Shown piece after piece: positions 1,262 to 33,872 of a stretch of 33,872 bases of DNA (positions within the stretch are counted from its first letter, which is position 1; each line of letters opens with the position of its first letter). Made by a program: the position numbers and the translations under genes. The notes below the pieces were generated by a model. It saw nothing but the letters and a program-made list of their open reading frames with translations. It had not been told where the DNA came from and ran no database searches. The DNA is from a virus: IMG/VR virus record IMGVR_UViG_3300046804_006776, positions 1-33,872 of that record. One strand, given 5' to 3'.

Positions 1262-1785
1262 TCGAACACCTATTACAGGATCCGGGATATAGGCGTGCTC
1301 GTGACTCGGGCTCGTGGTGGGTATGGCCTGCTCCTTGTAGTATAGAACCCCCTAGTTGGGAACAGTTATTGGAAAACATAGCATTCAGTAGCGCCCGCCG
1401 TGGGGAGTTGCGAGTGCTGAATAATTTGGGCTTTGTGGGCTATCATGCTCAACGCATACCCCTAGTGGGCTCAATACGTCGTGAGCTACAAACAGAATGC
1501 CCTGATACAGAAACCAGCGCACACCTATTCCTCAGCATGGGCCAACAGAGTGCGGGCTATGGGCGGCACAAAGATGACAGCGATCTATGGTTTTGGCAAT
1601 GCTACGGAACTACAGATTGGCGTGTGGAACACCCTGATGGAGACTTTGTGGGTACCCTGGGCCCGGGCTCTTGGATCTATGTACATAGGGAGCTCTATCA
1701 CACAGTACGCCCCCAGGGTGCTAGGGCCGCTATATCATTTGCCAATCATTACTTGATACCCAAGAACTCAATCAAACTCTTTTGA
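1258..1785 (+). CDS. cupin/JmjC-like Fe(II) oxygenase
   Basis: A 175-residue protein. A HKD triad at 104-106 is followed by WFWQCYGTTDWRV, a PGSWIYVHRELYH run ending in H148, and R156. HxD, then a strand pair with a tryptophan, then PG-D/S-x-x-YxPxxxxH resembles the JmjC/ribosomal-oxygenase type (YcfD, No66) of 2OG oxygenase core. The protein is much shorter than those families, which usually have extra winged-helix domains. It starts at an ATG whose ATGA overlaps the stop of the upstream oxygenase, indicating translational coupling. Its 3' end overlaps the convergent radical SAM gene by 37 bases. The substrate is unknown. A non-catalytic cupin is an alternative reading. Confidence 0.6.
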   Translation: MIEHLLQDPGYRRARDSGSWWVWPAPCSIEPPSWEQLLENIAFSSARRGELRVLNNLGFVGYHAQRIPLVGSIRRELQTECPDTETSAHLFLSMGQQSAGYGRHKDDSDLWFWQCYGTTDWRVEHPDGDFVGTLGPGSWIYVHRELYHTVRPQGARAAISFANHYLIPKNSIKLF

Positions 1786-3215
1786 TATTCGCGCTGTCTG
1801 TTAACTAGCAGTCTAGATATAGGGTATTTGCGATGTATGGCTTCCACGGACATGCTCTTCATTTCTTCTAGGCCGATACCCAGGTTAGCATAGTCCTGTA
1901 CATAAAACTCACTGATGCGAGCACGATCTTTGAACAGGCCTATGATCCTACTGCGCCAGCGGTCACAGACAGCATTGTCCAAACTATTAGAGGGTAGGCT
2001 CCAGCCTCGACCCACACGCTTGTATCCGTAGACATCTAAGTTTAAATTAAACTGGCTCCACCCATCTGATTGTGTAGCACCCTCGGGGGCTGGGGGTCCT
2101 AGCCATAGGGTATTGATGCTTAGGTTATCTACTGGACAGGCAGGGTCTGTTGCCCATGCTTCCAGTTCTTTGAAGTATTCTTCGGTATCATAAGGTAAGC
2201 CCAGGATAAGCCCCACTGATACTAGTACACGATCACCCCATAGGGCTCGTAGACGTACTAGCTCTGCCTTAGTACGCTTAGGGTCCAGCCCTTTGCCCAC
2301 GCATTGGGCTGACTTCTTGTTAAATGTTTCCACCCCAAAGAAACAGCCCACTAGGCCCATGTCTAATACTAGATCAGCAGTCTCGGGCCAACGCTCTATT
2401 AGATCCAGGCGTAGGAAACAGCTGAACTGGGGTTTAAAGGGTAGCGTCTTAAACATAGCATGTAGTTCAGCTAGACGCTCACGATCATCGTTAAACGTAT
2501 CGTCTGTAAAGTAAAAACGATTACAGCCCGTTGTAGCATGTGCTCGAAGCATTTGATCGCGTATCTGCTCTACAGGGCGTTGATAGGTGCCCTTCTTTTT
2601 ACCAATTAAAGGATAGCTACAGAACTTACATTGAAATATACAGCCCCGAGCCATTTCTATGGGTAGGGCTTCGTTAGGCAATAGGCAGTAGCTGGGATCG
2701 CTCCAATCAGTGTCAATATGTGCTGGGTCAGGCTCCGGATATGTGCGGCTGTCTACAAAACGTGGGGGTAGGTTACCCTGAGCTAGACTATGTGTATAGG
2801 CTATGACGCTGGTATCAGCATAGCCCGTGATGTAGGTATCTATGCGATCATCAAAGGCAAATAAGTGTGCGTAGGCGCCCCCGTAGACTAGCCAGGCCTT
2901 GCTACGGGCTTTGATATAGTCAAACAGCCAGTCCATATCGTTTAGTGATCTACTCCACATATGAGCCCTGGGGGTAGATGGGGGTGAGTTGCCAACCATG
3001 AATGTACTGGACCAGCCTACCCATAGGGTATCTGGGCCCAAGAGTTTATCCATTATTAGGGCTAGATCATTGCGTGACCAACTGCTGAACCACTCAACGA
3101 CCTGTACAGTATAGCCAGCATCTTTTAATGCTTGGGCTATTCTATAGGGTCCAAGGGTGCGCCTAAAAGAAAAGACATCTGTTGATTTGTCGTTGAATAA
3201 AACGACCTGCGCCAT
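1749..3215 (-). CDS. radical SAM protein with degenerate B12-binding-like N-domain
   Basis: A 488-residue protein. Residues 1-140 form an alternating strand/helix region of the B12-binding type found in many radical SAM methyltransferases and oxidases, but without the DxHxxG cobalamin motif. The radical SAM core starts with EMARGCIFQCKFCSYP, giving cluster cysteines C192, C196 and C199. FTDDTFNDD, GVETFN and GLPYDTEE stretches follow, typical of B12-type radical SAM cores. It is clearly paralogous to the protein at 11664-13202: both have RRTxGxxRIA near the N-terminus and RGCIFxCxFC. It starts at TAATG, overlapping the stop of the SPASM enzyme upstream in the operon. Reaction and substrate are unknown; peptide or glycan modification is an inference. 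Its DNA is richer in G+C than most of the window. Confidence 0.85.
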   Translation of the reverse strand: MAQVVLFNDKSTDVFSFRRTLGPYRIAQALKDAGYTVQVVEWFSSWSRNDLALIMDKLLGPDTLWVGWSSTFMVGNSPPSTPRAHMWSRSLNDMDWLFDYIKARSKAWLVYGGAYAHLFAFDDRIDTYITGYADTSVIAYTHSLAQGNLPPRFVDSRTYPEPDPAHIDTDWSDPSYCLLPNEALPIEMARGCIFQCKFCSYPLIGKKKGTYQRPVEQIRDQMLRAHATTGCNRFYFTDDTFNDDRERLAELHAMFKTLPFKPQFSCFLRLDLIERWPETADLVLDMGLVGCFFGVETFNKKSAQCVGKGLDPKRTKAELVRLRALWGDRVLVSVGLILGLPYDTEEYFKELEAWATDPACPVDNLSINTLWLGPPAPEGATQSDGWSQFNLNLDVYGYKRVGRGWSLPSNSLDNAVCDRWRSRIIGLFKDRARISEFYVQDYANLGIGLEEMKSMSVEAIHRKYPISRLLVNRQREYQKSLIEFLGIK

Positions 3216-4603
3216 TAGACAGCCTTGATGGGTATGATCTTTTGATTAGTTTCAGGACGCTCGCCACCTACCCACCAGAAGATATCCTTACGGTCTTCAC
3301 GTTGTGGGCCTTCGATGTATTTTGGGATCATGCCGGTCATGCTTTCAATAGCTGTGGCAAACATGACAATGTTGTCACTGAAGGCATTGTTACAGCTGGT
3401 TTCCCATAGGGGTCCGCTCAAGAACATACAAGCACCACGGCAGATGTGCAGCACAGGGCACTTAGGGCATTCTTCACGATCGCTCCAATGTGTGCTACTC
3501 TTTAGTTCTACAGCATCTAGATCGCTTACATGCCCTACCTTATGGCTAACTCCGGCTGGGTTAGTTGATACAGCCGATACGTTTTGGCAAGTTAATACAT
3601 TACCGTCCAAATCAACAGTCATGTTATCTGGCTGATCCATGCCGCACTTCTGACCCATGCCCGCACTCTTTAGTCCAAACCTAATACTCTGTACAAAGTC
3701 CGTAACCTTTTGTGAAATAACTCCAAAGCGTCTAGGTTGTTTATCGCGTATTTCCTGTAGGGCAAACTGACGATAGATAATCTGTTGCTTGTCTGTCATT
3801 AGACTGTTGGCCAGTCCGCCTTCATCGTAAGCATCGATAAACGCACCCTCGCCGATAGTTAGGTAGTCTAGCATATCATCGCCTAGCTCTTTGAGAATAA
3901 GCTCTTCAAACCATTGTTGGCATTCGGCACGACTAGCATTGCGAGCGTGTATCATTACATTGAAGCTGAAACGATTAGCGGGTGCTAGACGTTTGTATAA
4001 TTCTAGAATCCATTTACGGCTAACAGGATCTTCTAATGGATCTGGACCGCGTGTGCCTTGTCCAGGACCGTCGTGCGATACGGCAACAACAAAGTTAAGG
4101 GCATTTAACCAACGCACCTTTTCTTCATCAAGCAGACTACCGTTAGTAATAATGCTCTTGACAGCGTGTGGGTAACGACCGTGTATTAGTTCTGCTAGAG
4201 GTTTGAGTGTTTTCCAATAGACTAACGGCTCCCCACCCCAGAATTCGATTTTAGTGCTTTCACCCATGCCATCAGTTCCGCCGTTGAACCAGTTTTCCAT
4301 ATTGTCCACAAACGGTTTAATATCTTGAGGATTGTGTGATTCACTATGTGGGACGAAACGCTGATTACAATAGTCGCAGGCAAAGTTACACTCAAGACCC
4401 AATTGAATCTTTAGAATAACTGGTTGTTTACCCATTGGGATTTTAATTTGTCCTACATCAGGTTGATCTGCTACTTCTATATCTGTAAGAACAGGCTCTC
4501 GTGTATCAGCCCAGATCAATGTACTATCTGAATTGTCGTACTCCAATTGCCTTTCATGCGTATGATCGGCAGGGTTGTAAACAGTAACGGTAAATTTAGC
4601 CAT
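3215..4603 (-). CDS. radical SAM/SPASM enzyme (anSME / peptide-maturase-like)
   Basis: A 462-residue protein. The cluster motif LGLECNFACDYCNQ supplies C72, C76 and C79. A KIEFWGGEPL stretch is the SAM-amino-group GGE motif, and SIITNGSLL and VAVSHDGPG are further core motifs. The C-terminal third is a SPASM domain with a cysteine set (CGMDQPD, LTCQN, EECPKCPVLHICRGAC, TSCNNAF) that would ligate auxiliary Fe-S clusters. This domain order is that of anaerobic sulfatase-maturating enzymes and peptide-modifying maturases, which act on protein or peptide side chains. The ATG at 4603 is chosen over an in-frame upstream ATG at 4684 because it gives an 8-base overlap with the upstream gene and a normal N-terminus (MAKFTVTVYN). 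It sits in the same operon as the Asn-Cys protein at 7180-7467, a candidate substrate. Confidence 0.88.
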   Translation of the reverse strand: MAKFTVTVYNPADHTHERQLEYDNSDSTLIWADTREPVLTDIEVADQPDVGQIKIPMGKQPVILKIQLGLECNFACDYCNQRFVPHSESHNPQDIKPFVDNMENWFNGGTDGMGESTKIEFWGGEPLVYWKTLKPLAELIHGRYPHAVKSIITNGSLLDEEKVRWLNALNFVVAVSHDGPGQGTRGPDPLEDPVSRKWILELYKRLAPANRFSFNVMIHARNASRAECQQWFEELILKELGDDMLDYLTIGEGAFIDAYDEGGLANSLMTDKQQIIYRQFALQEIRDKQPRRFGVISQKVTDFVQSIRFGLKSAGMGQKCGMDQPDNMTVDLDGNVLTCQNVSAVSTNPAGVSHKVGHVSDLDAVELKSSTHWSDREECPKCPVLHICRGACMFLSGPLWETSCNNAFSDNIVMFATAIESMTGMIPKYIEGPQREDRKDIFWWVGGERPETNQKIIPIKAV

Positions 4604-5618
4604 ATGTGGGTGCGTCCTTAAAATATATGTTAGTGTAATTATCCAACAAAGCGAACCACTCGTGCTTTTTTGTGTAGAGTACACTAACTGCTTTGTCTTT
4701 ATACGATGTATAGTTGTTTGGGCCTATCCATCGATCTATTAATTGTCTCATTTGCCAACGATGTGTTAGATTGTCGGCAGGATCTAATTGTTTTGGTTCT
4801 TTGGTAGACATTGCCCATTGCTGGATTTCTGTGCTGTCAAAGAACGCATGAATTTCTCCGTAGTCCTTTAGGGGAAAGTAAATGTTCTGTTCGTACTTCA
4901 TTCCTTGCCAGGGGAAGTTAAACATCATAAAACATCTAAAGTCTTCTACAGTTTCTATTGTGCCAGGATATGCTCGAATGCTAGGATCTAGTATTTCTAA
5001 TATTTCCGGATCAACAACAGTCTTGTAATCTTTATGTATTGTTTCTAATGTGCCAAACTTAAATGGAGTGCCCGTGTTGTTAAACCAGTTGCCAGGACCA
5101 AATATTTGATTACCCAACATACCAGATACATATAGACATTCCTTGTTGGCCACAAGATCTAATCCAAATACACCTATTGTATATTTTACACGATCTCTAA
5201 TGTATTTGTCAAACAATTCGCCTGCTTCAATTATGCTGGCATAGGTTCCAAACACTGACACTTGTCCAGGTTGGGCATATTCTAATAAACACATTAAGGT
5301 AAACGTGCTGTCCAACCCTCCGCTCCATAATACAGTAATAGGTTTGTTTTGTGCTATCAGTTCCTGTGCTCGGATACGAGTAGCATCTTCAAAAGATATA
5401 ACTCTTGCTTCCGGTAATGGATCTAACAGTTTGATATTAAAGAAATGCGGCAACTGTCCTGTACGATCTATTTGGGCGTTAATGTGCTTGCCAAATACCT
5501 GTTGATATTTGTCGTATAGACCTACATCAATAAGAAAAGGGTCTAAGACCCTACTAGGTCTTCCTTTTATTAGTTTGGTTGTAAGTATTGGATTGTAAGC
5601 AATTATAGACTGTGTCAT
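4596..5618 (-). CDS. asparagine-synthetase-like PP-loop ATP enzyme
   Basis: A 340-residue protein. The ATP-pyrophosphatase P-loop is VLWSGGLDSTF (SGGLDST at 99-105). A second stretch, VSGMLGNQIFGPGNW (164-178), resembles the acceptor-site region SGxGxDExFGG of asparagine synthetase C-terminal domains. No N-terminal glutamine-hydrolysing Cys2 domain is present; the first 90 residues are unrelated. Enzymes of this class adenylate a carboxylate and transfer it to an amine or ammonia. Related stand-alone synthetase domains close the macrolactam ring of lasso peptides and build beta-lactams. It overlaps both neighbours (TAATG at its start), between a small unknown gene and the SPASM enzyme. Amidation, cyclisation or peptide ligation of a substrate made in the operon is inference. 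Confidence 0.75.
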   Translation of the reverse strand: MTQSIIAYNPILTTKLIKGRPSRVLDPFLIDVGLYDKYQQVFGKHINAQIDRTGQLPHFFNIKLLDPLPEARVISFEDATRIRAQELIAQNKPITVLWSGGLDSTFTLMCLLEYAQPGQVSVFGTYASIIEAGELFDKYIRDRVKYTIGVFGLDLVANKECLYVSGMLGNQIFGPGNWFNNTGTPFKFGTLETIHKDYKTVVDPEILEILDPSIRAYPGTIETVEDFRCFMMFNFPWQGMKYEQNIYFPLKDYGEIHAFFDSTEIQQWAMSTKEPKQLDPADNLTHRWQMRQLIDRWIGPNNYTSYKDKAVSVLYTKKHEWFALLDNYTNIYFKDAPTYG

Positions 5619-5929
5619 TACAATCTATTTACAAGGCGCAATGATAGTGTCCAGCGTCCTTGGGTTCTGTGTACAATAGGTAGACGGTTGTCTATTATAC
5701 GTTGTTTGTTATTTTGGACCCAGTCTTTCATTAATGGATCTAGGTTCAGTTCTGCTTCGGGAATAAACACTCCAGGCTGATCGTTGCGTAAGGGGCTAAG
5801 GCTAGAATACTGGAATATATCTTTTACTCGATAATATTCGTGATCGTTGTTTTCTGCTTCGGGTCCGGGATTAACATGTAACGGAACAGAGTCTATTGAC
5901 CAAACTGCTCCATCTATAAAAGGTTTCAT
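5618..5929 (-). CDS. hypothetical protein in the PP-loop/SPASM operon
   Basis: A 103-residue protein starting at the ATG at 5929, which overlaps the TGA of the virion-like gene upstream as ATGA. An in-frame upstream ATG at 5965 would cause a much longer overlap. No signal peptide or membrane segment is seen. Features are a proline-rich mid-section (HVNPGPEAENNDHEYYRVKD), the segment GVFIPEAELNLDPLMKDW and a basic C-terminus. I do not recognise it. Its place between a structural-type protein and the asparagine-synthetase-like enzyme allows two readings: a small virion accessory protein, or a partner of the modifying enzymes such as a leader-recognition or scaffold protein. Confidence 0.6.
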   Translation of the reverse strand: MKPFIDGAVWSIDSVPLHVNPGPEAENNDHEYYRVKDIFQYSSLSPLRNDQPGVFIPEAELNLDPLMKDWVQNNKQRIIDNRLPIVHRTQGRWTLSLRLVNRL

Positions 5930-7164
5930 GACAGGGTCTTTTCTACAGTCTCTGCGTTTGTCCAATATTTGAATCCTACCTTAGCACTAGCTACATCTCC
6001 CGGCTCTAGTGTAGTAGTCAGAATCTTAAATGTACCTGTGCCGTTAGTTAACTTAACTTCTAGGCGATCAGGAATACCGCACACTTGCTCTACATATAAT
6101 TTCTTTATGCTAGGATGTGTGTGGACCTGTACAGTGACAGGATCCCCTGCGGCAACATCACCGTCTGGAACAACACACCATACTTCTTCAATTAGTTTAT
6201 AAACAGGCTCTTTTACAGGACCAGTCCAGGAAGCCATTTGACTAGCAATGCCGGCAGCATCCCATTCTGATGCGCTAGGACCCCTTAAAAATTCATGTGG
6301 GGTTTGACTATTCATATACAAATGCCAAGACAATTGAGAAACAGACGTAAATGTCTTGTCATGAATGTAGACCATTATTGGAGTAGGTACTCTGTTAGAT
6401 GTTCTTTGCCCTTGTATAACAGGATTAATTTCGACTCCTGATCCTTTATTTTCAGTTGTTCTTTGAAATACCGGAACAAACCTATTCATGATCCATACTT
6501 TGTAGTTCTTGATTATAGTTGAAGTAGTCAACAAACGAACTTTATTCAAATAATCAAATTGGCTGAAGTTAAAACCATTAGATTGCGGAATTTTGTTTTC
6601 TTCAACATCAAATACGTCACACTCTAACGCAAACAACGATTGATCTACACTAGAAGGTGATGTTCTAAAGTTTTGAATATTAGCAATGATCTGTCCGCGG
6701 TTGTATGTAACAGTTGATGTGCTTTCTGTTGTTGCATCGACTAGATAAACTAATTGTACAGATGCTGTTGAAATACTGTTCGGGTTCTCTGGGTCAATGA
6801 CTGTAACAGTTGGCTGATAAATGTATCCACTCCCAGTTGTTGTAACAATCACATCAGTGATTGTTCCTGTGGTAATAACTGGTGTTGCTGTAAATTGTGT
6901 GCCACCTGCTACATCTGGAGAACTAAAAACAAGATAGGTAGAAGTTGATAATTCAGTTCCCCCAGAATCTACCTGAACAGCCTGTATACCGTAGGCAGAC
7001 TCTATAACATCTTCTTCAACTCTAAATTCAAAATTGTTTTGTTGGATGTTGATATAGAATTTTTGATCCTGGAACCGATTCATATCTGGGCGATACGTGA
7101 ATAGGCGTTGTCCTCGATCTTGCGGGACAAATTCTACTGACTGAGCTGAAGTAATTACGGGCAT
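5926..7164 (-). CDS. virion-type structural protein (fibre/neck-like)
   Basis: A 412-residue, beta-rich, Thr/Ser/Val-rich protein without signal peptide. Residues around 110-125 read VIVTTTGSGYIYQPTVTV, matching the 'GSGY..PTVTV' module repeated in many T4-like phage virion and fibre proteins. The N-terminal part (VEFVPQDRGQRLFTYRPDMNRF) and the C-terminal beta-rich part (PDGDVAAGDPVTVQVHTHP) look like assembly domains. It follows the Asn-Cys protein by 15 bases and is preceded by an AAGGA about 12 bases from the ATG. It overlaps the next gene by 4 bases. I infer a structural role from composition and this module; the exact virion position is unknown. Confidence 0.6.
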   Translation of the reverse strand: MPVITSAQSVEFVPQDRGQRLFTYRPDMNRFQDQKFYINIQQNNFEFRVEEDVIESAYGIQAVQVDSGGTELSTSTYLVFSSPDVAGGTQFTATPVITTGTITDVIVTTTGSGYIYQPTVTVIDPENPNSISTASVQLVYLVDATTESTSTVTYNRGQIIANIQNFRTSPSSVDQSLFALECDVFDVEENKIPQSNGFNFSQFDYLNKVRLLTTSTIIKNYKVWIMNRFVPVFQRTTENKGSGVEINPVIQGQRTSNRVPTPIMVYIHDKTFTSVSQLSWHLYMNSQTPHEFLRGPSASEWDAAGIASQMASWTGPVKEPVYKLIEEVWCVVPDGDVAAGDPVTVQVHTHPSIKKLYVEQVCGIPDRLEVKLTNGTGTFKILTTTLEPGDVASAKVGFKYWTNAETVEKTLS

Positions 7165-7179
7165 TTAAGTATTAATTCC

Positions 7180-7467
7180 TTAACAATTACAGTTACAGTT
7201 GCAATTGTAGCAATTGACGTAATAGTAGTACATTGTCCATCCAGCACAGTTTACTAGATAAATCTTAGGATAACAGTTACCAAAGCTGATGTTACCACAG
7301 TTACCAGCGCCGCCGTTTAACCAACCGACGTTGTAAGAGTTACGGTTTACTTCGTTAAAAGTGTTACCATATAGGTAACCGGAGTTGTTTGATAACTGGC
7401 TGATGTATCCTTGTAAGTTAACACCGCTGTTAAAAACGATACCATCGTTATAGATATATGTTGACAT
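7180..7467 (-). CDS. Asn/Cys-rich small protein ending in (Asn-Cys) repeats; candidate modified-peptide precursor
   Basis: A 95-residue protein with extreme composition: 20 Asn, 13 Tyr and 8 Cys, and only four charged side chains (D8, E39, R42, K68). All eight cysteines (57, 65, 74, 86, 89, 91, 93, 95) are directly preceded by Asn, and the last eight residues are four Asn-Cys pairs after a YYYY run. The N-terminal half has no cysteine and could act as a leader; the C-terminal 40 residues would be a core. It is the first gene of a minus-strand operon that also holds a radical SAM/SPASM enzyme, an asparagine-synthetase-like enzyme and a B12-type radical SAM enzyme, which would suit a ribosomally made modified peptide. 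A disulfide-rich or metal-binding tail-tip protein is a serious alternative, since a virion-type gene follows at once. It is preceded by a TAAATA late-promoter word. Confidence 0.7.
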   Translation of the reverse strand: MSTYIYNDGIVFNSGVNLQGYISQLSNNSGYLYGNTFNEVNRNSYNVGWLNGGAGNCGNISFGNCYPKIYLVNCAGWTMYYYYVNCYNCNCNCNC

Positions 7468-7497: not shown

Positions 7498-7503
7498 TAT
7501 TTA
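7498..7503 (-). promoter_or_regulatory. T4-type late promoter word TAAATA
   Basis: The minus strand reads ACATAAATACCC, 30 bases before the ATG of the Asn-Cys protein. It is the probable main promoter of the operon running down to 1749, since the following genes are contiguous or overlapping. Confidence 0.6.
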
Positions 7504-7578
7504 TGTGTTTGTCAAAGTGATGTTTGGTAATTTATTTTGACAAAAAGATTTCATTCCGGGAGACTTTTACCAGAATAC

Positions 7579-7695: not shown

Positions 7696-8358
7696 ATGCG
7701 AAAACTACTTAATGTAGTCTTAACAGTAATAGGCCTGATGTTTTTATCAAGTGGCGTGGCGGCTGCATACGATAATAGCAACAGCATACAGGTTGCGTAC
7801 AATTATAATGATCATCAAGTAACAGATAGAATAGGATCATTTGTACAGACTGTAATAACACCAATCATCGATCCAAAGGATTTAGAATGCTTGGCAAAGA
7901 ACATATTCTACGAAAGTGCTAGTGAGCCTTATGAGGGCAAGATAGCAGTAGGAATGGTCACACTTAATCGCGCAAGACATCCAAACTTCCCTAAGAGTAT
8001 CTGTGATGTAGTGAAACAGCGAACAACTAAGAGTGTTCCAAGAAAAGTAACAACATCCTATGTAGTTAGGACAGGGTACTTTGGGAAACTTGAAAAGCGT
8101 ACAGAAACGCAGACAGTTTGGGATAGCGTAACAACTTGTCAATTCAGCTGGAGTTGTACAAAAGTTAAGAAACCCAAAGCTGATGACCCACGATGGATAG
8201 CTAGCCAAGAAGTAGCCTATGAACTACTTGCTGGAGGTTACGACAAACACGAAGAAAAGTATGGTAATTTAAAATACTTCCATGCTACATTTGTTCGTCC
8301 GGCCTGGCACGGCGTAAAGCGCATAATTCGAATTGGCGGTCACGTCTTTTACGAATAA
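7696..8358 (+). CDS. secreted SleB/CwlJ-type cell wall hydrolase
   Basis: A 220-residue protein. Residues 1-24 form a Sec signal peptide: MRKLL, a hydrophobic core VVLTVIGLMFLSSG, then VAAA before the likely cleavage. The mature part from about 62 matches the Hydrolase_2 (SleB/CwlJ) fold: LECLAKNIFYESASEP with the likely catalytic E73, then VGMVTLNRARHPNFP, ICDVV, a CQFSWSC stretch, and a C-terminal YFHATFVRPAW. About 45 residues between ICDVV and the FSW motif are an insert relative to minimal family members. Enzymes of this family cleave peptidoglycan glycan strands, probably as lytic transglycosylases. In a phage it would help lysis from the periplasm. It has its own sigma70-like promoter and strong Shine-Dalgarno. 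Confidence 0.88.
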   Translation: MRKLLNVVLTVIGLMFLSSGVAAAYDNSNSIQVAYNYNDHQVTDRIGSFVQTVITPIIDPKDLECLAKNIFYESASEPYEGKIAVGMVTLNRARHPNFPKSICDVVKQRTTKSVPRKVTTSYVVRTGYFGKLEKRTETQTVWDSVTTCQFSWSCTKVKKPKADDPRWIASQEVAYELLAGGYDKHEEKYGNLKYFHATFVRPAWHGVKRIIRIGGHVFYE

Positions 8359-11175: not shown

Positions 11176-11664
11176 GTGTGGAACAATTTGAAAGAATTTG
11201 CTGAATGGTATCGAGATAATAATTACCCTCTTAGACCCCCGTTTGATAGTGGAGTATACGTTACAGACGAAGCTGTGAGTTATGTTCTATATAGAGAAGG
11301 GCAGTACCAAGCTGAGTTATATCTAGTCAAACCCGGAAAAATGCCTCCTGAGCATAGTCACCCTAATGTTGAAAACATTATTATTGTGTTAGGAGGAACG
11401 TTAGAGTGTAGTGTTAACGGAGAAAAATTAGATGCTGAACCATACTGGAATAAAACAAACGCTGACGGAACTAGTGTAATGTTTGGATATATAACAGATA
11501 ATCTTAAACATCCAAGCACTCATAGTGTCGGCGGCGGCCCAAAAGGTGTAGCTTTAATATCATTTGAGAAATGGCATCCAAATGTTACACCCACAAGTAT
11601 ATCACACGATTGGGCTGGGCCACCAGTTGGCGACATTCACAAAGAAACATTAAAGAACATATAA
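11176..11664 (+). CDS. single-domain cupin
   Basis: A 162-residue protein. The first cupin motif is GKMPPEHSHPNVENIIIVLGG, giving metal ligands H60, H62 and E66. The second is weaker, with H116 in HPSTHSVGGGP. Cupins of this kind are isomerases, dioxygenases or binding proteins. The GTG at 11176 is the start because no ATG lies near and the first strand-forming residues follow directly. Its stop overlaps the ATG of the radical SAM gene as TAATG, so the two are coupled. Its substrate is unknown; a role in handling the radical SAM substrate or product is inference. Confidence 0.75.
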   Translation: MWNNLKEFAEWYRDNNYPLRPPFDSGVYVTDEAVSYVLYREGQYQAELYLVKPGKMPPEHSHPNVENIIIVLGGTLECSVNGEKLDAEPYWNKTNADGTSVMFGYITDNLKHPSTHSVGGGPKGVALISFEKWHPNVTPTSISHDWAGPPVGDIHKETLKNI

Positions 11665-13202
11665 TGCACGGACTATTATTAACAGGCTTTCCTACAGTTG
11701 GATATGTTGCTGTATATCGTCGAACAAGCGGAGCACATAGAATTGCGACATACTTAAGAAAAGAAGGTTGGGACATAGAAGTACTTGATTTTCTACTAGG
11801 ATGGAGTCTAGAGGAATTAAAAGAGTTCACACGTTCTAGGATAACAAGCAAAACTGTATTTGTCGGTTTCGGTGGAACATTTCCAATTTGGACTGATACA
11901 CTATGTCAATACTTTGAATGGGTAAGAAAAGAATATCCAAGTGTATCAATTATTGCCGGAGGACAAGTTAGTAACTTATATAAAGTAAATGCCGATTGGT
12001 ATATAGATGGGTTCGGAGAAAAAGCCATCGGAGCATTATTAAAACACATCACCGGAACTTCAACTGAAAAATTAAAATTTCAACTTTGGGACAATGGCCG
12101 TAAAATTATAAAAGGCAATTTAGATTACCCTAGTTTTCCTATGAAAGATCTAAGTATCCGCTACGAAGATAGAGATTTTATTTTAGAAAAAGAAACCTTG
12201 GTAACAGAACTTGGAAGAGGTTGTATCTTTAATTGTTCTTTTTGTAATTTTCCTATATTAGGAGTTACGGAAGATCATACTAGAGATGCCGATAACTTGT
12301 ACGAAGAGCTACAGGATACATATGATAGATTTGGTGTAACCAAATATGTTATAGCAGACGAGACTGTAAATGATTACACAGAGAAACTTGAAAAATTTGC
12401 CGGAGCAGTTAAAAGATTAAACTTTCAACCCAGGATGTATGGATTTGCTCGAGCAGATTTACTTGTCTCTCGTCCCCAGGATTGGGATATAATGCTTGCT
12501 ATGGGATTTACTGGCCACCATTATGGTATCGAGTCAACTAACCATAAGACACTTAAAACAATTGGCAAAGGTATGCATCCTGATAAGTTGCTACCTGGAC
12601 TACTAAATGCCAGAACATATTTTCAACAGCACGGAAGTTATCGAGGACAAATAAGTCTCATCGCTGGCTTACCATACGATACTCCGGCTAGTTTACAATC
12701 AACATTAGATTGGTGTAAAACTAATTGGAGAACAGAAAATACAATGCTATTTCCTTTGTATATTCCTAAGGAAAGTTACGGTGATAATAGTTCTAAATTA
12801 ACACAGGACTGGACCAAATATTATACTGAAACTAAAGAAGACTTACTTCCTAAAATAAAAGAAAGATTTCCTTACCTTCCTACACAATATGGAACTGGTG
12901 CTGCATTAGTTTCTCACACTGGATTAAGTTGGCAAAACGAAGTTTGGAATATTGAAGATGTAACAGAACTAGTATATAACTTTTATAAAAGTCCTGAATA
13001 TACACAAACTAATGGGCCCGTTCTTTGGAGCGTAGGAGAACTCGAACTAGCATTTGACAAGCCTTCGGGGTACTATGACGGAAAGACATTGAGCGATATT
13101 GCTAACGGCGATACTTCTCCCGAAGGCTTTTACAAGACGCTTATTAAGAGTAATCCTCTTGTAAAAGAATACATTACTAAAAAACTTAATTGGCGTTTTT
13201 AA
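11664..13202 (+). CDS. radical SAM protein with degenerate B12-binding-like N-domain
   Basis: A 512-residue protein, paralogue of 1749-3215. The N-terminal 130 residues are Rossmann-like (RRTSGAHRIATYLRKEGW, IIAGGQVS) and lack a DxHxxG cobalamin ligand. The radical SAM cluster motif is TELGRGCIFNCSFCNFP (C187, C191, C194), followed by VIADETVNDY, GIESTNHKTLK and ISLIAGLPYDTPAS. The start at ATG 11664 overlaps the cupin stop; longer in-frame starts would run far into the cupin gene. It is AT-rich like most of the window, unlike its paralogue. It could methylate or oxidise an unreactive carbon, but no substrate can be named. Confidence 0.85.
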   Translation: MHGLLLTGFPTVGYVAVYRRTSGAHRIATYLRKEGWDIEVLDFLLGWSLEELKEFTRSRITSKTVFVGFGGTFPIWTDTLCQYFEWVRKEYPSVSIIAGGQVSNLYKVNADWYIDGFGEKAIGALLKHITGTSTEKLKFQLWDNGRKIIKGNLDYPSFPMKDLSIRYEDRDFILEKETLVTELGRGCIFNCSFCNFPILGVTEDHTRDADNLYEELQDTYDRFGVTKYVIADETVNDYTEKLEKFAGAVKRLNFQPRMYGFARADLLVSRPQDWDIMLAMGFTGHHYGIESTNHKTLKTIGKGMHPDKLLPGLLNARTYFQQHGSYRGQISLIAGLPYDTPASLQSTLDWCKTNWRTENTMLFPLYIPKESYGDNSSKLTQDWTKYYTETKEDLLPKIKERFPYLPTQYGTGAALVSHTGLSWQNEVWNIEDVTELVYNFYKSPEYTQTNGPVLWSVGELELAFDKPSGYYDGKTLSDIANGDTSPEGFYKTLIKSNPLVKEYITKKLNWRF

Positions 13203-16012: not shown

Positions 16013-17194
16013 ATGCTATTCATACATAAAACAACATCTCTTTGTGATCATTGCTATCGACACATTCCGGGAAATGTGATCGAAGAAAACAATCAAATTG
16101 TATTATTAAAACGATGTCCTGAGCACGGAGAAATGAAGTCTATTGTGGAGATTGATAAAAATTTTTATTATAATTTAACACATACGGCAATCCCTATCCA
16201 ACTTGGCCATATGCTGTTTGAAGTAACTGACAAGTGCCAATTAGAATGCCCGCATTGCTATCATTTACCGGATAACAAAGCATTAGACAAAGATATCGAA
16301 GAGATTATAAAACAAGTAAAATCATTTCCTAAATATTGTAGACCTTTAATAGCAGGAGCAGAGCCAACCCTTCGAAAAGATTTTGTTGAATTGTGTAGAC
16401 GACTCAAGGCCACTGGCTTAGAAGCATTTGGAGTATTGACTAACGGTGTTCGATTTGCTGATAAAGAATTTGCTCAGGCTGCCTGGGATGCTGGATTACA
16501 ACACGCAGTTGTAGGATTGAATCATTGGACCTATCAGGGAAAAAAGATACATGATAAGCAATTAAAAGCTATTAAAAACTTAACTGACATTGGATACTGG
16601 ATGGGGTATGTTGGATATACTATCGAAACTTTAGATCATATTCCTGATATATTAACAGAGATTGAAACTATAAAACATCCTCTCATATGGCAATATCGAA
16701 TAAGATGCGGAAGTTTTATAGGTAGGAGTGGAGATACAGAACGCAGTTACCTTAGTAGTCTAGTAAAAGCTGTTGAAAAATTTTATGATCAGCCATTAGA
16801 ATATGTAGGACCAGATGACAATCCATATCATTTTATGGTAAAGACTCCGACGGGAGTCGTTTTGAGATTAATACAGTGGCCGGATGTGACTAATATCGAT
16901 ATGGAAGAATTACGAACAGGTCCCTGGTCTACTTTTGTCGACGGTGCGCCGGCTACTAATTTTGTTCATCAAGTTATTACGCGAGATGCTTATAAAAACA
17001 TGAAACGCAGACCATTGGACATTTGTCCACCTAGATATTATTGTACACATCCTTCTACGTTAGAAGGTAGTCATTGGAAACATGATTGGAAAGGGCCAAC
17101 AGAAGTTACTGAATTAGATTGGACATATATTCAAGAGCCTATCCCTGCACCGAGATATTTTAGTTTAACGCCAACAAATGAAACTAGGTCCTAA
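16013..17194 (+). CDS. radical SAM protein of the COG1964/Tes-like type
   Basis: A 393-residue protein. A small N-terminal metal-site region (CDHCYRHIPG and KRCPEHGE: C11, C14, C35, H38) precedes the radical SAM core, as in the archaeal tetraether-synthase-like and related COG1964 enzymes. The cluster motif is FEVTDKCQLECPHCYHLPD (C75, C79, C82), with AGAEPTLR as a GGEPTLR variant. The C-terminal part holds further cysteines near CPPRYYCTHP. Family members join or modify unreactive carbons of lipids or other substrates. Here the partner is an overlapping QueC-like gene (17 bases), followed by a glycosyltransferase and an oxygenase. The substrate is unknown. Confidence 0.83.
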   Translation: MLFIHKTTSLCDHCYRHIPGNVIEENNQIVLLKRCPEHGEMKSIVEIDKNFYYNLTHTAIPIQLGHMLFEVTDKCQLECPHCYHLPDNKALDKDIEEIIKQVKSFPKYCRPLIAGAEPTLRKDFVELCRRLKATGLEAFGVLTNGVRFADKEFAQAAWDAGLQHAVVGLNHWTYQGKKIHDKQLKAIKNLTDIGYWMGYVGYTIETLDHIPDILTEIETIKHPLIWQYRIRCGSFIGRSGDTERSYLSSLVKAVEKFYDQPLEYVGPDDNPYHFMVKTPTGVVLRLIQWPDVTNIDMEELRTGPWSTFVDGAPATNFVHQVITRDAYKNMKRRPLDICPPRYYCTHPSTLEGSHWKHDWKGPTEVTELDWTYIQEPIPAPRYFSLTPTNETRS

Positions 17195-20131: not shown

Positions 20132-20977
20132 ATGAACAGACGCGATTGGACAACTACTTTACCAAATAGTAATATACTAGATTTGTCTAGCAATATCTGT
20201 TACGACAAATATCTGAATATCGATACTGAACAAAACAATCAATGTTATCCAGATTCAAGTGAAGCATACAATTTGCTATCAAGTTATTATAACATAAGCC
20301 CGTATAATATAGCTATCGGATACGGCTCTTGCGAATTAATACTTCGAATACTTCAGGCGTATCGAGATTGGACTCTACATATTGTAACCCCAACATGGCA
20401 GCTGGCTGAACTCTATGCTTATCATATAGGAATGAAGCAACAGATAAATGCTGACATCTTATACATTGCTAACCCAAACGGCCTTACAGGACAAGCGTTG
20501 TCTGTTAAAGATATACTAGGAATGCTTCCGAATTATAAATTGGTAATTGTAGATGAAGCCTACGGAGACTTTAGCAACTGCTCAGTATTAAAGTATGCTA
20601 CAACTTCAGACAACTTGATTGTAGTAAAGACGTTGAGCAAAACTATTGCTTCTCCTGGTTTAAGATTTGGTTATTGTTTTTCCAACACAAAGATTATTAA
20701 ACACATACAAGATAGCCGACCGGGCTATGTAACAACTGGCGCAACAGTCAACGCATTGAAAAGGTTACTTCCTCATATTGACCTTCATGTTGCTCGTATG
20801 ATAGACACAAGAGATTACATAGAATCAAAGTATATGGTAGTACCGTCTGAAGGAAACTATGTTTTGTTTAGACAAGATCCGCACCTGCCTGTTGTTATGC
20901 GAGAAACTAATGGATTGTATCGAATGGCTCTAACAGATTTAACTACCTTTAAGGAATTGGAAAATGAATATCGATGA
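20132..20977 (+). CDS. PLP-dependent class I/II aminotransferase, HisC-like
   Basis: A protein of about 281 residues, short for histidinol-phosphate aminotransferases (about 350). Counting from the ATG at 20126, the features are NIAIGYGSCELILRI (cofactor-binding strand), TPTWQLAELYA, IANPNGLTG (N116), VIVDEAYGDF (D143), KTLSKTIASPGLRFGY with Schiff-base lysine K172, and R180. The start could be the ATG at 20126 or 20132; I use 20132 because of the promoter word at 20121-20126. It overlaps the next radical SAM gene by 14 bases. A role in making an amino sugar, amino alcohol or amino acid derivative for the operon is inference. Confidence 0.82.
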   Translation: MNRRDWTTTLPNSNILDLSSNICYDKYLNIDTEQNNQCYPDSSEAYNLLSSYYNISPYNIAIGYGSCELILRILQAYRDWTLHIVTPTWQLAELYAYHIGMKQQINADILYIANPNGLTGQALSVKDILGMLPNYKLVIVDEAYGDFSNCSVLKYATTSDNLIVVKTLSKTIASPGLRFGYCFSNTKIIKHIQDSRPGYVTTGATVNALKRLLPHIDLHVARMIDTRDYIESKYMVVPSEGNYVLFRQDPHLPVVMRETNGLYRMALTDLTTFKELENEYR

Positions 20978-21782
20978 GCTAAGGACATTACAAGAACAAG
21001 GTGTAAAGGACCTATGGTCTACATTGCGTAGTGTAGAAATAAATCCAACTGAACTGTGTAATAGAACGTGCTCATTCTGCCCTAGAACCGACCCTAAACT
21101 TTATAAAAATCGTAAGCAACACATTGATCCTAGCCTATGTATGCTAATAGGATCGCAATTACAAAACTTTACAGGTAGGATTGGGTTTGTGGGGTTTGGT
21201 GAGCCATTACTTCATCCAAACATTGTAGAGTGTGTTACTAACGTTAGAACAGGATGTCCTACAGCACAATGGATTGAAATTAATACTAACGGAGATGTAC
21301 TAACTAGAGATCTAGCTGTCGAACTAGCTGCCGCAGGATGTACAAATATTACAATTAGTATGTATGATAAAGACAATACAGATTATTTTACTGAAATGCT
21401 CGATGGAGTCAATGTTCAAATGATATTGCGACATCATTACAACACAGGTACAATGGGATTGATTAATAGAATTAATATCATTAGAAAAGATGGTAACATA
21501 CTAGAGGTTAATCGCCCTTGTTACAGGCCTTTCTATAAAATGTTTATAGACTGGAATGGAGACTTTTTATTGTGCGAGCAGGACTGGGGCAAAGTTACTA
21601 AGCGATATAATATATATTCGACTAATATTGTCGATTTTTGGTTAGATAAACTAAATCGATATAGGATAGAACTAATGGAAGGAAATCGAGTGTTAAGTCC
21701 TTGTGATAAGTGTGATATAAACGGAACCAAACACGGACAAGATAGTTTTAATATATTTTATGATCAACTTACTACAAAATAA
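20964..21782 (+). CDS. radical SAM protein with SPASM-type C-terminus
   Basis: A 272-residue protein, compact. The cluster motif is SVEINPTELCNRTCSFCPRTD (C32, C36, C39). GFVGFGEPLLHP is the GGEPLLHP-type SAM motif, and IEINTNGDVL and ITISMYDKD follow. A reduced C-terminal cysteine set (RPCYRPF, LLCEQDWG, SPCDKCDI) looks like a SPASM or twitch domain holding one auxiliary cluster. Enzymes of this type often modify peptides. It sits between an aminotransferase and the unknown cassette at 21760-22688, overlapping both. Confidence 0.85.
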   Translation: MNIDELRTLQEQGVKDLWSTLRSVEINPTELCNRTCSFCPRTDPKLYKNRKQHIDPSLCMLIGSQLQNFTGRIGFVGFGEPLLHPNIVECVTNVRTGCPTAQWIEINTNGDVLTRDLAVELAAAGCTNITISMYDKDNTDYFTEMLDGVNVQMILRHHYNTGTMGLINRINIIRKDGNILEVNRPCYRPFYKMFIDWNGDFLLCEQDWGKVTKRYNIYSTNIVDFWLDKLNRYRIELMEGNRVLSPCDKCDINGTKHGQDSFNIFYDQLTTK

Positions 21783-22506: not shown

Positions 22507-22688
22507 TACACATAAAAGTATACAATGAACTTAATGAGTTGATTTATGAAATTGACTGCCCATCGCTTGCTCTCATGAGCATGTATATGCTATGGTACTG
22601 TCCTACTACTACAAATAGACTCAAATTAACTTGGCCTAACGGAAGAACAATAACAACTGCGCTATCTAATCCTAATTGTTGGGGATAG
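22485..22688 (+). CDS. unknown small protein A2 of a duplicated two-gene cassette
   Basis: A 67-residue protein paralogous to 27702-27887. Both share a beta-hairpin start (HIKVYNELNELIYEIDCP against KLEIYKNGQLVKTFDCP), an invariant DCP, an AL-S-Y segment, a PF/PT turn and a C-terminal strand with IT. Neither has a signal peptide or membrane segment. Always downstream of and overlapping the larger partner gene, it may form a complex with it, or be a small carrier or substrate for the nearby radical SAM enzyme. The C-terminus NPNCWG is not conserved in the paralogue. Its 3' end overlaps the convergent oxygenase gene by 17 bases. Confidence 0.65.
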   Translation: MEYTDQVIHIKVYNELNELIYEIDCPSLALMSMYMLWYCPTTTNRLKLTWPNGRTITTALSNPNCWG

Positions 22689-22689
22689 C
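22661..22689. terminator. possible bidirectional hairpin at a convergent overlap
   Basis: GCTATC at 22661-22666 pairs with GATAGC at 22684-22689, with an inner CC/GG pairing and a T/A-rich loop. It sits exactly where two convergent genes end and could act in both directions. There is no clear T run, so this is weak. Confidence 0.25.
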
Positions 22690-23253
22690 ATTTATAACCA
22701 GATGTATTCGTTCAGTGTTGCCTGAGTTATAAACGAAATGATGTACAGTTGTATCAATTTTATAAAAATGACCATCTGCCGGAATATGATATCCTCTAAC
22801 TTGATAATCTTCTAAAGGTCCTACTGTTGTCGGAGTACAGATAAAACATCCTATATTAGTAGTAATTGCTAAATGGTATCTTTGCTCTGAATCTTGATGC
22901 ATCATAAGTCCAGTCTTTGGCATTAATCGCATTATTCTTACTCTTCCGGGAGTAAAGTTATGTTCCTTAGCAAGACTGTTGACTAATTCTATTAGATAGT
23001 TTGGCAACTCTTCATTCCATACTGTAAAGTCTGTTTCAAGTTTACCTGCTTGATTATCTTTGCCGCCGCCGCTAGCGTCTAACCATTTATTAGTGGCCGA
23101 TTGACGATGTGTTAATCCTATTTGATTTACAATGCTACAATCTTCTACAGATCCGTTAGGCCAGGGACGTATTGATAAAATACGTTCTATGCATTCTTTA
23201 ATGATTTCTAAGTTTGCTGTGTTATTCAGCTTTTTTATAAATTGATTTTCCAT
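22672..23253 (-). CDS. aspartyl/asparaginyl beta-hydroxylase-like 2OG-Fe(II) oxygenase
   Basis: A 193-residue protein. VRIMRLMPKTGLMMHQDSEQRYHLAI (written here in parts: RIMRLMPKTG, then MMHQDSEQRYH) gives H119 and D121. CFICTP and GYHIPADGHFYKIDTTVHH give the second strand set and H171/H172. NTERIHLVINAI gives R182. This is the Asp/Asn beta-hydroxylase (PF05118) pattern, in which the HxD is followed by R-H on the next strand. It is the last gene of a four-gene operon with three radical SAM enzymes, overlapping the upstream one by 32 bases. Peptide or protein side-chain hydroxylation is a reasonable inference. Confidence 0.83.
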   Translation of the reverse strand: MENQFIKKLNNTANLEIIKECIERILSIRPWPNGSVEDCSIVNQIGLTHRQSATNKWLDASGGGKDNQAGKLETDFTVWNEELPNYLIELVNSLAKEHNFTPGRVRIMRLMPKTGLMMHQDSEQRYHLAITTNIGCFICTPTTVGPLEDYQVRGYHIPADGHFYKIDTTVHHFVYNSGNTERIHLVINAIPNN

Positions 23254-24460
23254 CTATCTTGTTTAATGAGTAAATTCTATCTATTTTAGTTTCGCCGCCA
23301 CACATACTAGCACAAAAGGCTAACTTGCCGTTTGCTACAGTATCTATTTCCCAGGACTTAGCAAACACATTATCTAAATGTCCTGCGTCTAATATTTCTC
23401 GTAAGGTGTGTCTATTTAAATCAAAGTTATCCCATCCGTAATCATTCATATGTTTATGTAGTTGTAATGATTGGGTGTCTTTATATACTCCGTTTAGATG
23501 TGTTCCTACGTAACAGCAAGGCATTAATCTACCAAAATTATCTACAAAGATTTCCTTACCTGTATTACGCTTTGCTTTACATTGTATTGAACAGGCGTTT
23601 GCTTTACTATGATCTTCTTTTGCTATCTGAGTGTATACATATTCAACTCTAGTTGTGTATCCTGGATCGATCTCTTTGCTCTTAAGTTTGTTATAAACTG
23701 ATAGTTCCATTCCGAACCATACGGGCTTAGATCCTATAGGATTTTCCAAATTTCTATACTTTGGTATTGTAGGAGCTTCGATAGCATATTCAAGTACTCC
23801 TTCTCTGTTCATAGCAGGCATCGGTCGTAGGTATGTGCCGTCATCTACCCCTAGTGCTTTCTTAGGAATAAACATTTTAAATCCTGCTTGCTCGGAGTAT
23901 GCCTTGGCTTCGTCCACTTGATGTTCGTTATGCTTGAATATCAAATATTCCCAAACAGCAATTCCACCCCCTTTAATAAAGGCAGTAAAGTTGCTCTCTA
24001 GTGCTTTCCATTTAACATTACGTCTATATATATGATTAGTATCTTCTAGTCCGTCGATGCTGAATATTAACCTCCATCGACTATCGGCACTAGATCGTTT
24101 GCTAAACAACTGTCCAAACTTATACCACCAGTCTGGATTACGCATACCGCCGTTTGTATTAATATGGACTATTGTTTTACTGTCGATAGATTGTATGTAC
24201 TCGCATATCTCGTACAGGTCTTTGGCCATACCCGGATCACCATGTACTCCGCAGAACAAAAACATATTACATTGTTTTACTACATCTTCTGGAAAGTACT
24301 GTTTAAACTTGTCTATTGTAATTTGGCCTATCTCTAAATCAGGCCTTATTAATGGACTATTATGGTAATATCGCACACACATAGGACAAGCGGCATTACA
24401 CGCATTAGTTAATTCTACGTGTATTTGCGACAGTTCTGTGTTATTCCAAAATGCTGTCAT
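23222..24460 (-). CDS. radical SAM protein with C-terminal SPASM-like cysteines
   Basis: A 412-residue protein. The cluster motif HVELTNACNAACPMCVRY gives C21, C25 and C28. MFLFCGVHGDPGMAKD replaces the usual GGEPL with a GDPG form, and IVHINTNGGMRN and LIFSIDGLEDTN follow. The C-terminal third has ANACSIQCKAK, GRLMPCCYVGTH and AFCASMCGG, a SPASM-type cysteine set. It overlaps the twitch-type radical SAM gene upstream by 4 bases (ATGA) and the beta-hydroxylase downstream by 32. The substrate is unknown. Confidence 0.85.
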   Translation of the reverse strand: MTAFWNNTELSQIHVELTNACNAACPMCVRYYHNSPLIRPDLEIGQITIDKFKQYFPEDVVKQCNMFLFCGVHGDPGMAKDLYEICEYIQSIDSKTIVHINTNGGMRNPDWWYKFGQLFSKRSSADSRWRLIFSIDGLEDTNHIYRRNVKWKALESNFTAFIKGGGIAVWEYLIFKHNEHQVDEAKAYSEQAGFKMFIPKKALGVDDGTYLRPMPAMNREGVLEYAIEAPTIPKYRNLENPIGSKPVWFGMELSVYNKLKSKEIDPGYTTRVEYVYTQIAKEDHSKANACSIQCKAKRNTGKEIFVDNFGRLMPCCYVGTHLNGVYKDTQSLQLHKHMNDYGWDNFDLNRHTLREILDAGHLDNVFAKSWEIDTVANGKLAFCASMCGGETKIDRIYSLNKIDGKSIYKKAE

Positions 24461-25623
24461 TTAGTATACCCTATAATCTTAGCAAATTCTGGAAATGTAG
24501 TAGCATAATCCTCATTGCGATAATTGTCGGTTAGTCTAATTTCGTTCATTAATGTGTCCCACTGCTCAGTATTAGGAGTACCGTTTTCTATGAACTTAAT
24601 AATGCCCGATAATTGATTAGAATGTGACTTAGGAATAGTGTTTAGTTTGTCTATAACTATTTTCTTTACATTATCAGGCATACCACTAATATTAAAATGC
24701 TCGGGCCAATGAACTAAGTTTAAGTAAAGTGTTAATGATCCGCGAAATCTAGCATTAAAATAATTAATAATCTCGTCAAGATAAAAAATATTAAGAGCAC
24801 TGAGCGTAACACACCAAAACGGGCGCATATTACTATACGTCACTTCTGGGCGGCTCATATTAACAAGGACATCATTCCACACAGCTGGATGTCTCATATA
24901 TTCAAACCTTGACCCAACACCGTCAATACTAAATCCTAAATTAACTTGCTTGAAATGTTTCCATACTTCAGTTTCTACAGGCCAAACAGTTCCATTGGTG
25001 GCATAATTCAATGTCATGTCTTTGGCATACCCTAATTCAACTGTACGTTTTAAAACACTCCACATTTTTTTACTGAGCAGAGGTTCTCCTCCGTAAAAAT
25101 CAATTTTCTTAATAGTACTTAAACTATCTTCTAATTCTTTCCAAAACGTACTATCGTCGTCATAGCTATTAGAATAAGTTCTTATTTTTTTACGATATTC
25201 TTCTTTTGATACGACATTTACATATTTTGTATCATATAGCTCTTGAGCCCATTGGCTGCTTGAATGTGGAGCACAAGTTCTACATTTAATGTTACAAGTG
25301 TTGCCCATGTTAAGTTCAACATAGACTAATCCTTGTTGGTCTCTAGACCAATTGCTATTGTCTCTTATTCGTTTACTGTCTCGCCCAGCTTCTTCTTCTT
25401 TCCAGCATCGATTACACCCCGGGTGCTTTATTCCTTGAGATAACGCAGACCTTAACTCAACAAACTCCGATCCATTAAAATGGTCTAAGAGAGGAACCTC
25501 CCCTAATTTTGATTCTTTCCCGTTAGGAGTTCGAGTAAACATACAACAAGGTCGTGTTTTTCCATCATTTGATGAACTGATAGCATGGAACGCATTTATA
25601 CACCATGTATTAGAATTGGTCAT
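24457..25623 (-). CDS. radical SAM protein with N-terminal twitch domain
   Basis: A 388-residue protein. The N-terminal 90 residues carry the cysteine/histidine pattern of the N-twitch radical SAM group: WCINAFHAIS (C8, H13), RPCCMF (C26, C27) and HPGCNRCWKEEEAG (C70, C73) before a D-S-R stretch. The radical SAM core follows with VELNMGNTCNIKCRTCAPHSS (C110, C114, C117), IDFYGGEPLLS and LGFSIDGVG. The substrate is unknown for this group. It overlaps the next twitch-type gene upstream by 14 bases and the SPASM gene downstream by 4. Confidence 0.87.
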   Translation of the reverse strand: MTNSNTWCINAFHAISSSNDGKTRPCCMFTRTPNGKESKLGEVPLLDHFNGSEFVELRSALSQGIKHPGCNRCWKEEEAGRDSKRIRDNSNWSRDQQGLVYVELNMGNTCNIKCRTCAPHSSSQWAQELYDTKYVNVVSKEEYRKKIRTYSNSYDDDSTFWKELEDSLSTIKKIDFYGGEPLLSKKMWSVLKRTVELGYAKDMTLNYATNGTVWPVETEVWKHFKQVNLGFSIDGVGSRFEYMRHPAVWNDVLVNMSRPEVTYSNMRPFWCVTLSALNIFYLDEIINYFNARFRGSLTLYLNLVHWPEHFNISGMPDNVKKIVIDKLNTIPKSHSNQLSGIIKFIENGTPNTEQWDTLMNEIRLTDNYRNEDYATTFPEFAKIIGYTK

Positions 25624-33545: not shown

Positions 33546-33872
33546 TTAAACCCTAAAACTTTCCCCACACCCGCAACGATCTCGTTCATTTGGATTCTTA
33601 AAATCAAATCCTTCATTTAACCCGTTGCGTACCCAGTCAATAATCATCCCGTTTAGGTAAACTTGACTCTTGGCATCTACCAATACTACAAAGTCTTTTT
33701 GGGCATAATTTGTAATACCCACTTCATGGGTGTATTCGTCTACATATTCTAACACATAGGCAAGCCCCGAGCAACCGGTTGTGCGAACTCCTATCCGAAT
33801 TCCTACACCTTTACCACGTTTTTTTAATTGTCCAACTATCTTCTTATAGGCTTGCTCTGTGAATGTAATCAT
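33546..33872 (-). CDS. iscA: IscA/HesB A-type Fe-S cluster carrier
   Basis: A 108-residue protein of normal family length. It has ITFTEQAYKKI at the N-terminus, IRIGVRTTGCSGLAY with C34, a FVVLVDAKSQVYLNG strand and the C-terminal FKNPNERDRCGCGESF with C100 and C102. These three cysteines are the Fe-S ligands of A-type carriers, which deliver clusters to apo-enzymes. The ATG lies at the last bases of the window, so the promoter is outside. HesB/IscA genes have been reported as auxiliary metabolic genes in marine phages. Here the gene sits beside eight radical SAM enzymes that each need a [4Fe-4S] cluster. Confidence 0.92.
   Translation of the reverse strand: MITFTEQAYKKIVGQLKKRGKGVGIRIGVRTTGCSGLAYVLEYVDEYTHEVGITNYAQKDFVVLVDAKSQVYLNGMIIDWVRNGLNEGFDFKNPNERDRCGCGESFRV

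Follow-up and report, generated by a model that had tools for sequence, protein, structure and literature searches.

The SPASM radical SAM enzymes PapB, CteB, SkfB and QhpD form Cys thioethers, and the own substrate of QhpD is a protein subunit rather than a small RiPP. The enzyme anSME makes formylglycine at one Cys or Ser of the sulfatase motif. We know of no phage fiber link for the His-Xaa-Ser system, in which HxsA is said to occur with HxsB and HxsC, reportedly described by Haft and Basu. The nearest published item is "Cluster 59" (PMC9062424, JBC 2022), in which a radical SAM enzyme of uncharacterized chemistry lies beside an Asp-Cys repeat peptide and which, compared by description alone, could belong to the same family as the enzymes considered here. 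Among virion proteins, the HxH iron sites of T4 gp37, P2 gpV and R-pyocin present alternating ligands in trimeric phage fibers, with six His from three chains binding one Fe (PMC6116203).

Here, we analyzed an IMG/VR virus contig of 33,872 bases (hereafter, the window), which encodes a 95-aa protein with a C-terminal Asn-Cys array (the tag) and, in the same run of genes, a radical SAM/SPASM enzyme (Table 1). As in Cluster 59, a radical SAM enzyme adjoins a two-residue Xaa-Cys repeat, present there in up to six copies; however, Cluster 59 comprises a recombinase, the enzyme and an Asp-Cys peptide, with no phage fiber or virion context mentioned. The locus shares a short regular substrate repeat and radical SAM/SPASM maturase(s) with the His-Xaa-Ser system, HxsB being a distant relative of the enzyme, whereas that system has another repeat and two maturases. 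PapB, CteB, SkfB and QhpD are likewise SPASM radical SAM enzymes, but the scores against ranthipeptide and sactipeptide maturases lie far below the cut-offs, no RRE is seen in the enzyme model and the substrate would be the C-terminus of a phage fiber. The enzyme anSME provides the nearest PDB fold and differs in its formylglycine chemistry, with an NCBIfam score far below the cut-off. Unlike the tag, the HxH sites use His rather than Cys, lie in the shaft rather than at the C-terminus and have no partner enzyme. In open-access PMC text, we found no account of a phage fiber Asn-Cys tag combined with a radical SAM enzyme (a description elsewhere is possible); hence, the virion fiber would represent a new kind of substrate for radical SAM peptide maturation. 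We consider it probable, judging from sequence comparisons, that the Asn-Cys tag is the substrate of the enzyme and is modified, most likely by thioethers, into a cross-linked fiber tip.

The Asn-Cys protein and its operon

The protein ends in NCNCNCNC, followed by TAA. Translation and counting agree with what the sequence-only reading of this DNA had stated, namely, 20 Asn, 13 Tyr and only 4 charged residues, with Asn before each Cys (residues 57, 65, 74, 86, 89, 91, 93 and 95); the protein also has 12 Gly and 8 Cys in total. The same reading had considered so regular a repeat unlikely by chance, which is borne out by the tag statistics across relatives (see below) and by 200,000 shuffles of the protein's own residues, none of which placed Asn before every Cys and 2 of which ended in NCNCNC. 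The array is encoded by AAT TGC TAC AAT TGC AAC TGT AAC TGT AAT TGT TAA, that is, with both synonymous codons for Asn as well as for Cys, indicating a constraint at the protein level rather than a DNA repeat; an origin of the Asn-Cys repeat by DNA slippage is ruled out by this synonymous codon use.

No other ORF of the window carries the tag. Searches with the protein as a query yielded no Pfam family, a single weak PHROG match (0.027), no tblastn match in INPHARED and no relative in viral_contigs. The protein aligned with the fiber tip of a related locus, L004, at 31% identity over 72 aa (E 5e-5, a value from a single comparison of sequences with biased composition), and also with fiber tips of other relatives. 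Because of the alignment with the L004 tip, we read the protein as a putative free-standing tip; it resembles a short tail-fiber-tip protein, with that alignment as its only link to fibers.

Upstream of the gene lies CATAAATA, which resembles the T4 late promoter sequence, TATAAATA. The motif YATAAATA occurs in the window only as this one copy, compared to 10 expected by chance, so that there is no enrichment and it is the position of the element, not its presence, that weakly suggests a T4-type late promoter. The divergent gene adjoining the tag gene encodes a cell wall hydrolase (PF07486, 4.2e-19; endolysin PHROG).

On the minus strand, the tag gene is followed by gene 2 and by the genes for the ~100-aa protein, the PP-loop protein, the radical SAM/SPASM enzyme and the second radical SAM enzyme, with a gap of 15 nt between the first two and overlaps of a few nucleotides between the later neighbors. 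The C-terminal residues 329-412 of gene 2 have high predicted pLDDT, and its fold search returned generic Ig-like matches alone, none with E < 1e-3. An HMM built from the corresponding genes in ten related loci matches the ~100-aa gene of the window (E 7.9e-10). All matches of the PP-loop protein are weak, to QueC/PAPS reductase and to LarE/Asn synthase/ArgG-like proteins, and the second radical SAM enzyme was not seen as a conserved partner in related loci. The 34-kb contig carries at least 8 radical SAM genes (positions 1749-26962), of which three fall slightly short of the Pfam cut-off. They are accompanied by an Asp/Asn beta-hydroxylase-like gene and by several genes that resemble 2OG-Fe(II) oxygenases. 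The contig also carries a phage-encoded IscA-type Fe-S biosynthesis protein (PF01521, 9.1e-16), which could help in loading radical SAM clusters.

Table 1. Locations of the features discussed (window positions, unless a related locus is named).
Feature	Location	Strand	Remarks
Tag protein, 95 aa	7180..7467	-	Start ATG, stop TAA; C-terminal (Asn-Cys)n array
Tag itself, last 11 residues and stop	7180..7215	-	Codons for N-C-Y-N-C-N-C-N-C-N-C
T4-type late-promoter-like element CATAAATA	7498..7505	-	~30 nt upstream of the tag gene start codon
Cell wall hydrolase	7696-8358	+
Gene 2, 412 aa, virion-like	5926..7164	-	Ig-like C-terminal domain; next to the enzyme in 93/130 loci
~100-aa accessory protein	5618..5965	-	Likely start ATG 5929, overlapping the gene 2 stop
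PP-loop ATPase-like accessory protein, 340 aa	4596..5618	-	Homologues in 24/130 loci
Radical SAM/SPASM enzyme, proposed tag maturase	3215..4684	-	Likely start ATG 4603 (M28 of the listed ORF)
Second radical SAM enzyme, akin to B12-dependent types	1749..3215	-	1-nt overlap with the first enzyme
Radical SAM genes of the window	1749-3215, 3215-4684, 11571-13202, 16013-17194, 20964-21782, 23222-24460, 24457-25623, 25610-26962
Asp/Asn beta-hydroxylase-like gene	22672-23253
IscA-type Fe-S biosynthesis protein	33546-33872	-
Tail-fiber genes with Hint directly after the Asn-Cys tag	L150:6658-8109, L149:6808-8250, L180:5631-7160, L233:5044-6609
DctP-family TRAP solute-binding protein	L004:6178-7125

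The radical SAM/SPASM enzyme and its relatives

The enzyme is a member of the radical SAM superfamily with a SPASM domain. It matches Radical_SAM (PF04055, 8.5e-07; 29.7 bits against a cut-off of 29.5), SPASM (TIGR04085; 34.9 bits, above the cut-off of 27) and phrog_1802 (1.2e-61), and carries the CX3CX2C motif (C99, C103 and C106; invariant in 24 and 25 sequences) and seven more invariant Cys in the SPASM region (C347, C366, C406, C409, C415, C419 and C431). In NCBIfam, it matches peptide maturases best, among them PapB, nif11 and QhpD, all with scores far below the cut-offs: 55.2 bits against 340 for the PapB-type ranthipeptide maturase (NF047865), 49.6 against 453 for the QhpD-type maturase (TIGR03906) and 40.6 against 370 for HxsB, the His-Xaa-Ser system maturase (TIGR03978, 1.3e-10), with 42.9 against 349 for anSME. 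The structural model (mean pLDDT 82.9) is nearest to the folds of anSME (top PDB match 4k36, Foldseek 3.2e-10), ChlB, TigE, CteB and SkfB; searches by sequence profile, taken together with those by fold, point to these enzymes. The winged-helix RRE is the usual peptide-recognition module. In the model, the barrel is preceded by three strands alone, without helices (residues 30-58); hence, the model shows no canonical RRE and no N-terminal winged-helix RRE domain.

The first search recovered relatives of the enzyme in 30 viral loci, and their number reaches at least 586 in viruses and 122 in bacterial genomes, including Limnohabitans, Burkholderia paludis, Polynucleobacter, Thalassobacter, Nereida and MAGs. 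The bacterial loci may represent host genes or prophages, and many of the 122 are probably prophage-borne.

Association of the tag with the enzyme

In many of the 30 first viral loci, the upstream gene encodes a tail-fiber-like protein of 357-442 aa that ends in an Asn-Cys array (CNCNCNC, NCTNCNCNC, NCRCNC, NCNCVCNC and others), and relatives keep the tag/fiber gene, gene 2 and the enzyme gene in the same order. The association was surveyed in a set of 130 enzymes sharing less than 90% identity; this filter, which acts by sequence and not by contig name, reduced cases of the same contig fetched twice. Among loci with at least 3 kb of upstream sequence, strict tag calls were obtained in 60/62 viral and 37/51 genome loci. 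When the near-miss form NC[NDA]C[NDA]C is included, tags are present in 107 of the 120 assessable loci on the deep enzyme tree (FastTree, to be read with a long-branch warning), 10 further loci being too short; L161, L182, L198 and L288, first scored as "none," proved to have near-miss tags on re-reading. A recognizable tag is absent from 13 of the 120 loci despite the enzyme. Six of these form part of one deep clade, mainly Bacteriovoracaceae (L224, L227-L231), and the sole neighborhood read in it, that of L224, contains ABC-transporter and glycosyltransferase-like genes, not phage genes. This enzyme-only clade suggests that not every relative of the enzyme serves phage fibers.

Tagged ORFs of at least 80 aa located upstream on the same strand number 119, and 117 of them lie within 4 kb of the enzyme (44/322, 49/163, 15/178 and 9/127 ORFs by successive kb upstream), the region at 4-6 kb contributing 2/228. 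In the controls, 0/1052 downstream ORFs and 2/1995 ORFs on the opposite strand are tagged, which excludes chance for the placement of the tag. The reverse search, using a DNA pattern for CNCxCNC-stop and leaving out 15 loci with too little downstream sequence, detected the enzyme no more than 5 kb downstream of all 38 assessable tag-ending ORFs; no tag-ending ORF with at least 5 kb of downstream sequence lacked it, once a family of 73-aa ORFs was set aside. The latter family, which ends in CNCKCNC and has no enzyme (L046, L098, L102, L120 and L138), was considered unrelated. Where the pattern matched elsewhere than at the end of an ORF, the enzyme was present in 1 of 61 cases. Four cultured phages outside the enzyme matches have fiber proteins with shared repeats, and these proteins contain no CxC. 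What the tagged loci contain is the arrangement by which a RiPP is recognized, a ribosomal substrate whose gene adjoins that of a maturase and whose modifiable core is conserved.

In phages, modification genes are often found near fiber genes, and the window is rich in unrelated radical SAM and 2OG-oxygenase genes, as might be expected if the enzyme had another target, be it tRNA, a sugar on the cell surface or a different protein of the virion, and were linked to the fiber genes only, the tail itself forming disulfides. This is distinctly improbable in view of the co-occurrence in both directions over a deep enzyme tree and over unrelated carriers and hosts, and of the complete absence of the tag from the downstream ORFs. 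Instead, the association strongly suggests that the enzyme acts on the tag. Among the fates that the sequence-only reading had offered for the array, namely, deamidation, backbone modification, disulfide ladders and metal binding, modification is favored by the tie to the enzyme, seen in both search directions, whereas nothing specific speaks for deamidation.

Tag sequences and their carriers

Across 97 different C-terminal tags, Cys is preceded by Asn at 314 of 400 positions and less often by Ala (29), Asp (13) and Arg (11); the tags comprise 2 to 9 xC units, and 74 of the 97 have Asn-Cys at the very end. Codon use across the tags of relatives is 86/86 for AAC/AAT and 135/82 for TGT/TGC. Thus, the conservation of the Asn-Cys spacing across phages, proposed earlier as a check, holds for composition and not for length, and the free drift of the tail that had been named as counterevidence is likewise confined to length. 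This variation in length would be the sign of a chance low-complexity extension without function, to which we assign practically no credence: it is already contradicted by the survey, in which the Asn-Cys composition is conserved, synonymous codons vary, the carriers are independent and the same enzyme adjoins them.

The carriers differ among relatives and include a T4-like fiber (L014, with matches to tail/structural PHROGs; phrog_24210, 7.3e-12), a collagen-like tail fiber (L137; phrog_5073, 2e-81) and ~95-aa proteins, with short carriers of 92-167 aa forming tandem triplets in L058, L074, L084 and other loci. Judged by homology to fiber families, the carriers in the relatives are phage tail-fiber proteins. 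Four loci, representing at least two lineages (JWF, 2-1, Burkholderia paludis and a Rhodospirillales MAG), have an internal tag with a Hint domain, starting with CFPAGT, directly behind it. Hint domains are self-cleaving, and this cleavage, inferred here, would expose the internal tag as a C-terminus. The tag either ends its protein or precedes a self-cleaving Hint domain. Collectively, the tag is present and conserved at the protein level on several unrelated fiber carriers, and its association with the enzyme holds both ways.

The tandem triplets of short tagged proteins, together with the resemblance of the enzyme to RiPP maturases, could alternatively mean that the tag is a core peptide, cleaved from its carrier and set free as a phage-borne RiPP against competitors or the host. 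However, we noticed neither a peptidase nor an exporter in the neighborhoods read, the tag is carried on fiber proteins of 350-550 aa and Hint cleavage would keep the tag on the fiber rather than free it, making such a release very improbable.

The main rival to modification would be a tip that binds metal ions or a cluster, as a thiolate analogue of the HxH fiber sites, in which the inward alternating Cys of three chains would hold a column of metal ions and the enzyme would be minor or preparatory. The ligands alternate as in the HxH sites, the carriers are fiber proteins, an IscA-type Fe-S biosynthesis protein is encoded in the window and iron in phage tails has been proposed to act as a lure for siderophore receptors (PMC11705849). 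By contrast, the HxH sites lie inside fiber shafts and need no dedicated enzyme, whereas a radical SAM enzyme accompanies every assessable locus found through the tag, and the tag is an extreme C-terminus of variable length. We therefore regard a metal column as unlikely, albeit the least so of the alternatives considered.

Proposed maturation of the fiber tip

Under the substrate reading, the 95-aa protein would be a short distal tail-fiber protein of a phage, and the radical SAM/SPASM enzyme would modify its Asn-Cys array after or during fiber synthesis. The most likely bond would join the Cys sulfur to a carbon of a neighboring residue, either inside one chain or across the chains of the trimer, yielding a covalently stapled, rigid tip that may contact the receptor or lock the assembled fiber. 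The thioether nature of the bonds, predicted because the substrate is Cys-rich and because of the distant kin of the enzyme, is held with moderate confidence; that the product stiffens or decorates the fiber tip for adsorption or assembly is the least secure step and may be regarded as a suggestion. Counted against the substrate reading are the 13 tagless loci among 120, the lack of an RRE in the model and the distance of all thioether-forming kin, which score far below the NCBIfam cut-offs.

The neighborhoods of the enzyme also differ in their accessory genes. A 2OG-Fe(II) oxygenase-like gene is found in 58/130 enzyme loci and the set of the ~100-aa, DctP-like and PP-loop genes in about 25/130, and the two never occur together, which suggests alternative second steps, a pattern that related sequences could also produce. 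The DctP-family TRAP solute-binding protein (PF03480, 1.7e-45 in L004; 22/130 loci, including homologues) sits inside the tail cassette of related phages and starts without an obvious signal peptide. As a tentative extension, which we hold to be possible rather than probable, phages would use dedicated radical-SAM chemistry to stitch the Asn-Cys C-termini of trimeric fibers into natural-product-like tips, possibly mimics of peptide- or siderophore-type ligands of an outer-membrane receptor, and would add a second tailoring step by one of two exclusive sets, either the 2OG-Fe(II) oxygenase or the PP-loop ATPase with the ~100-aa and, usually, the DctP-like protein.

Implications

The tail-fiber tip usually decides which cell is infected. 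If the link between tag and enzyme is right, hundreds of phages, given that the enzyme has at least 586 relatives in viruses, finish their tail-fiber tip by radical chemistry, and bacterial genomes (122 relatives), many probably through prophages, use such chemistry as well; phrog_1802, listed merely as "radical SAM domain-containing protein," would thereby gain a role. The tag would constitute a new Cys-rich class of radical SAM substrates, and the presence of carriers among cultured viruses, the Achromobacter phages JWF and 2-1, would make this a testable claim on phage adsorption. More generally, virion architecture would join secreted peptides and enzyme cofactors as a field of radical SAM peptide maturation.
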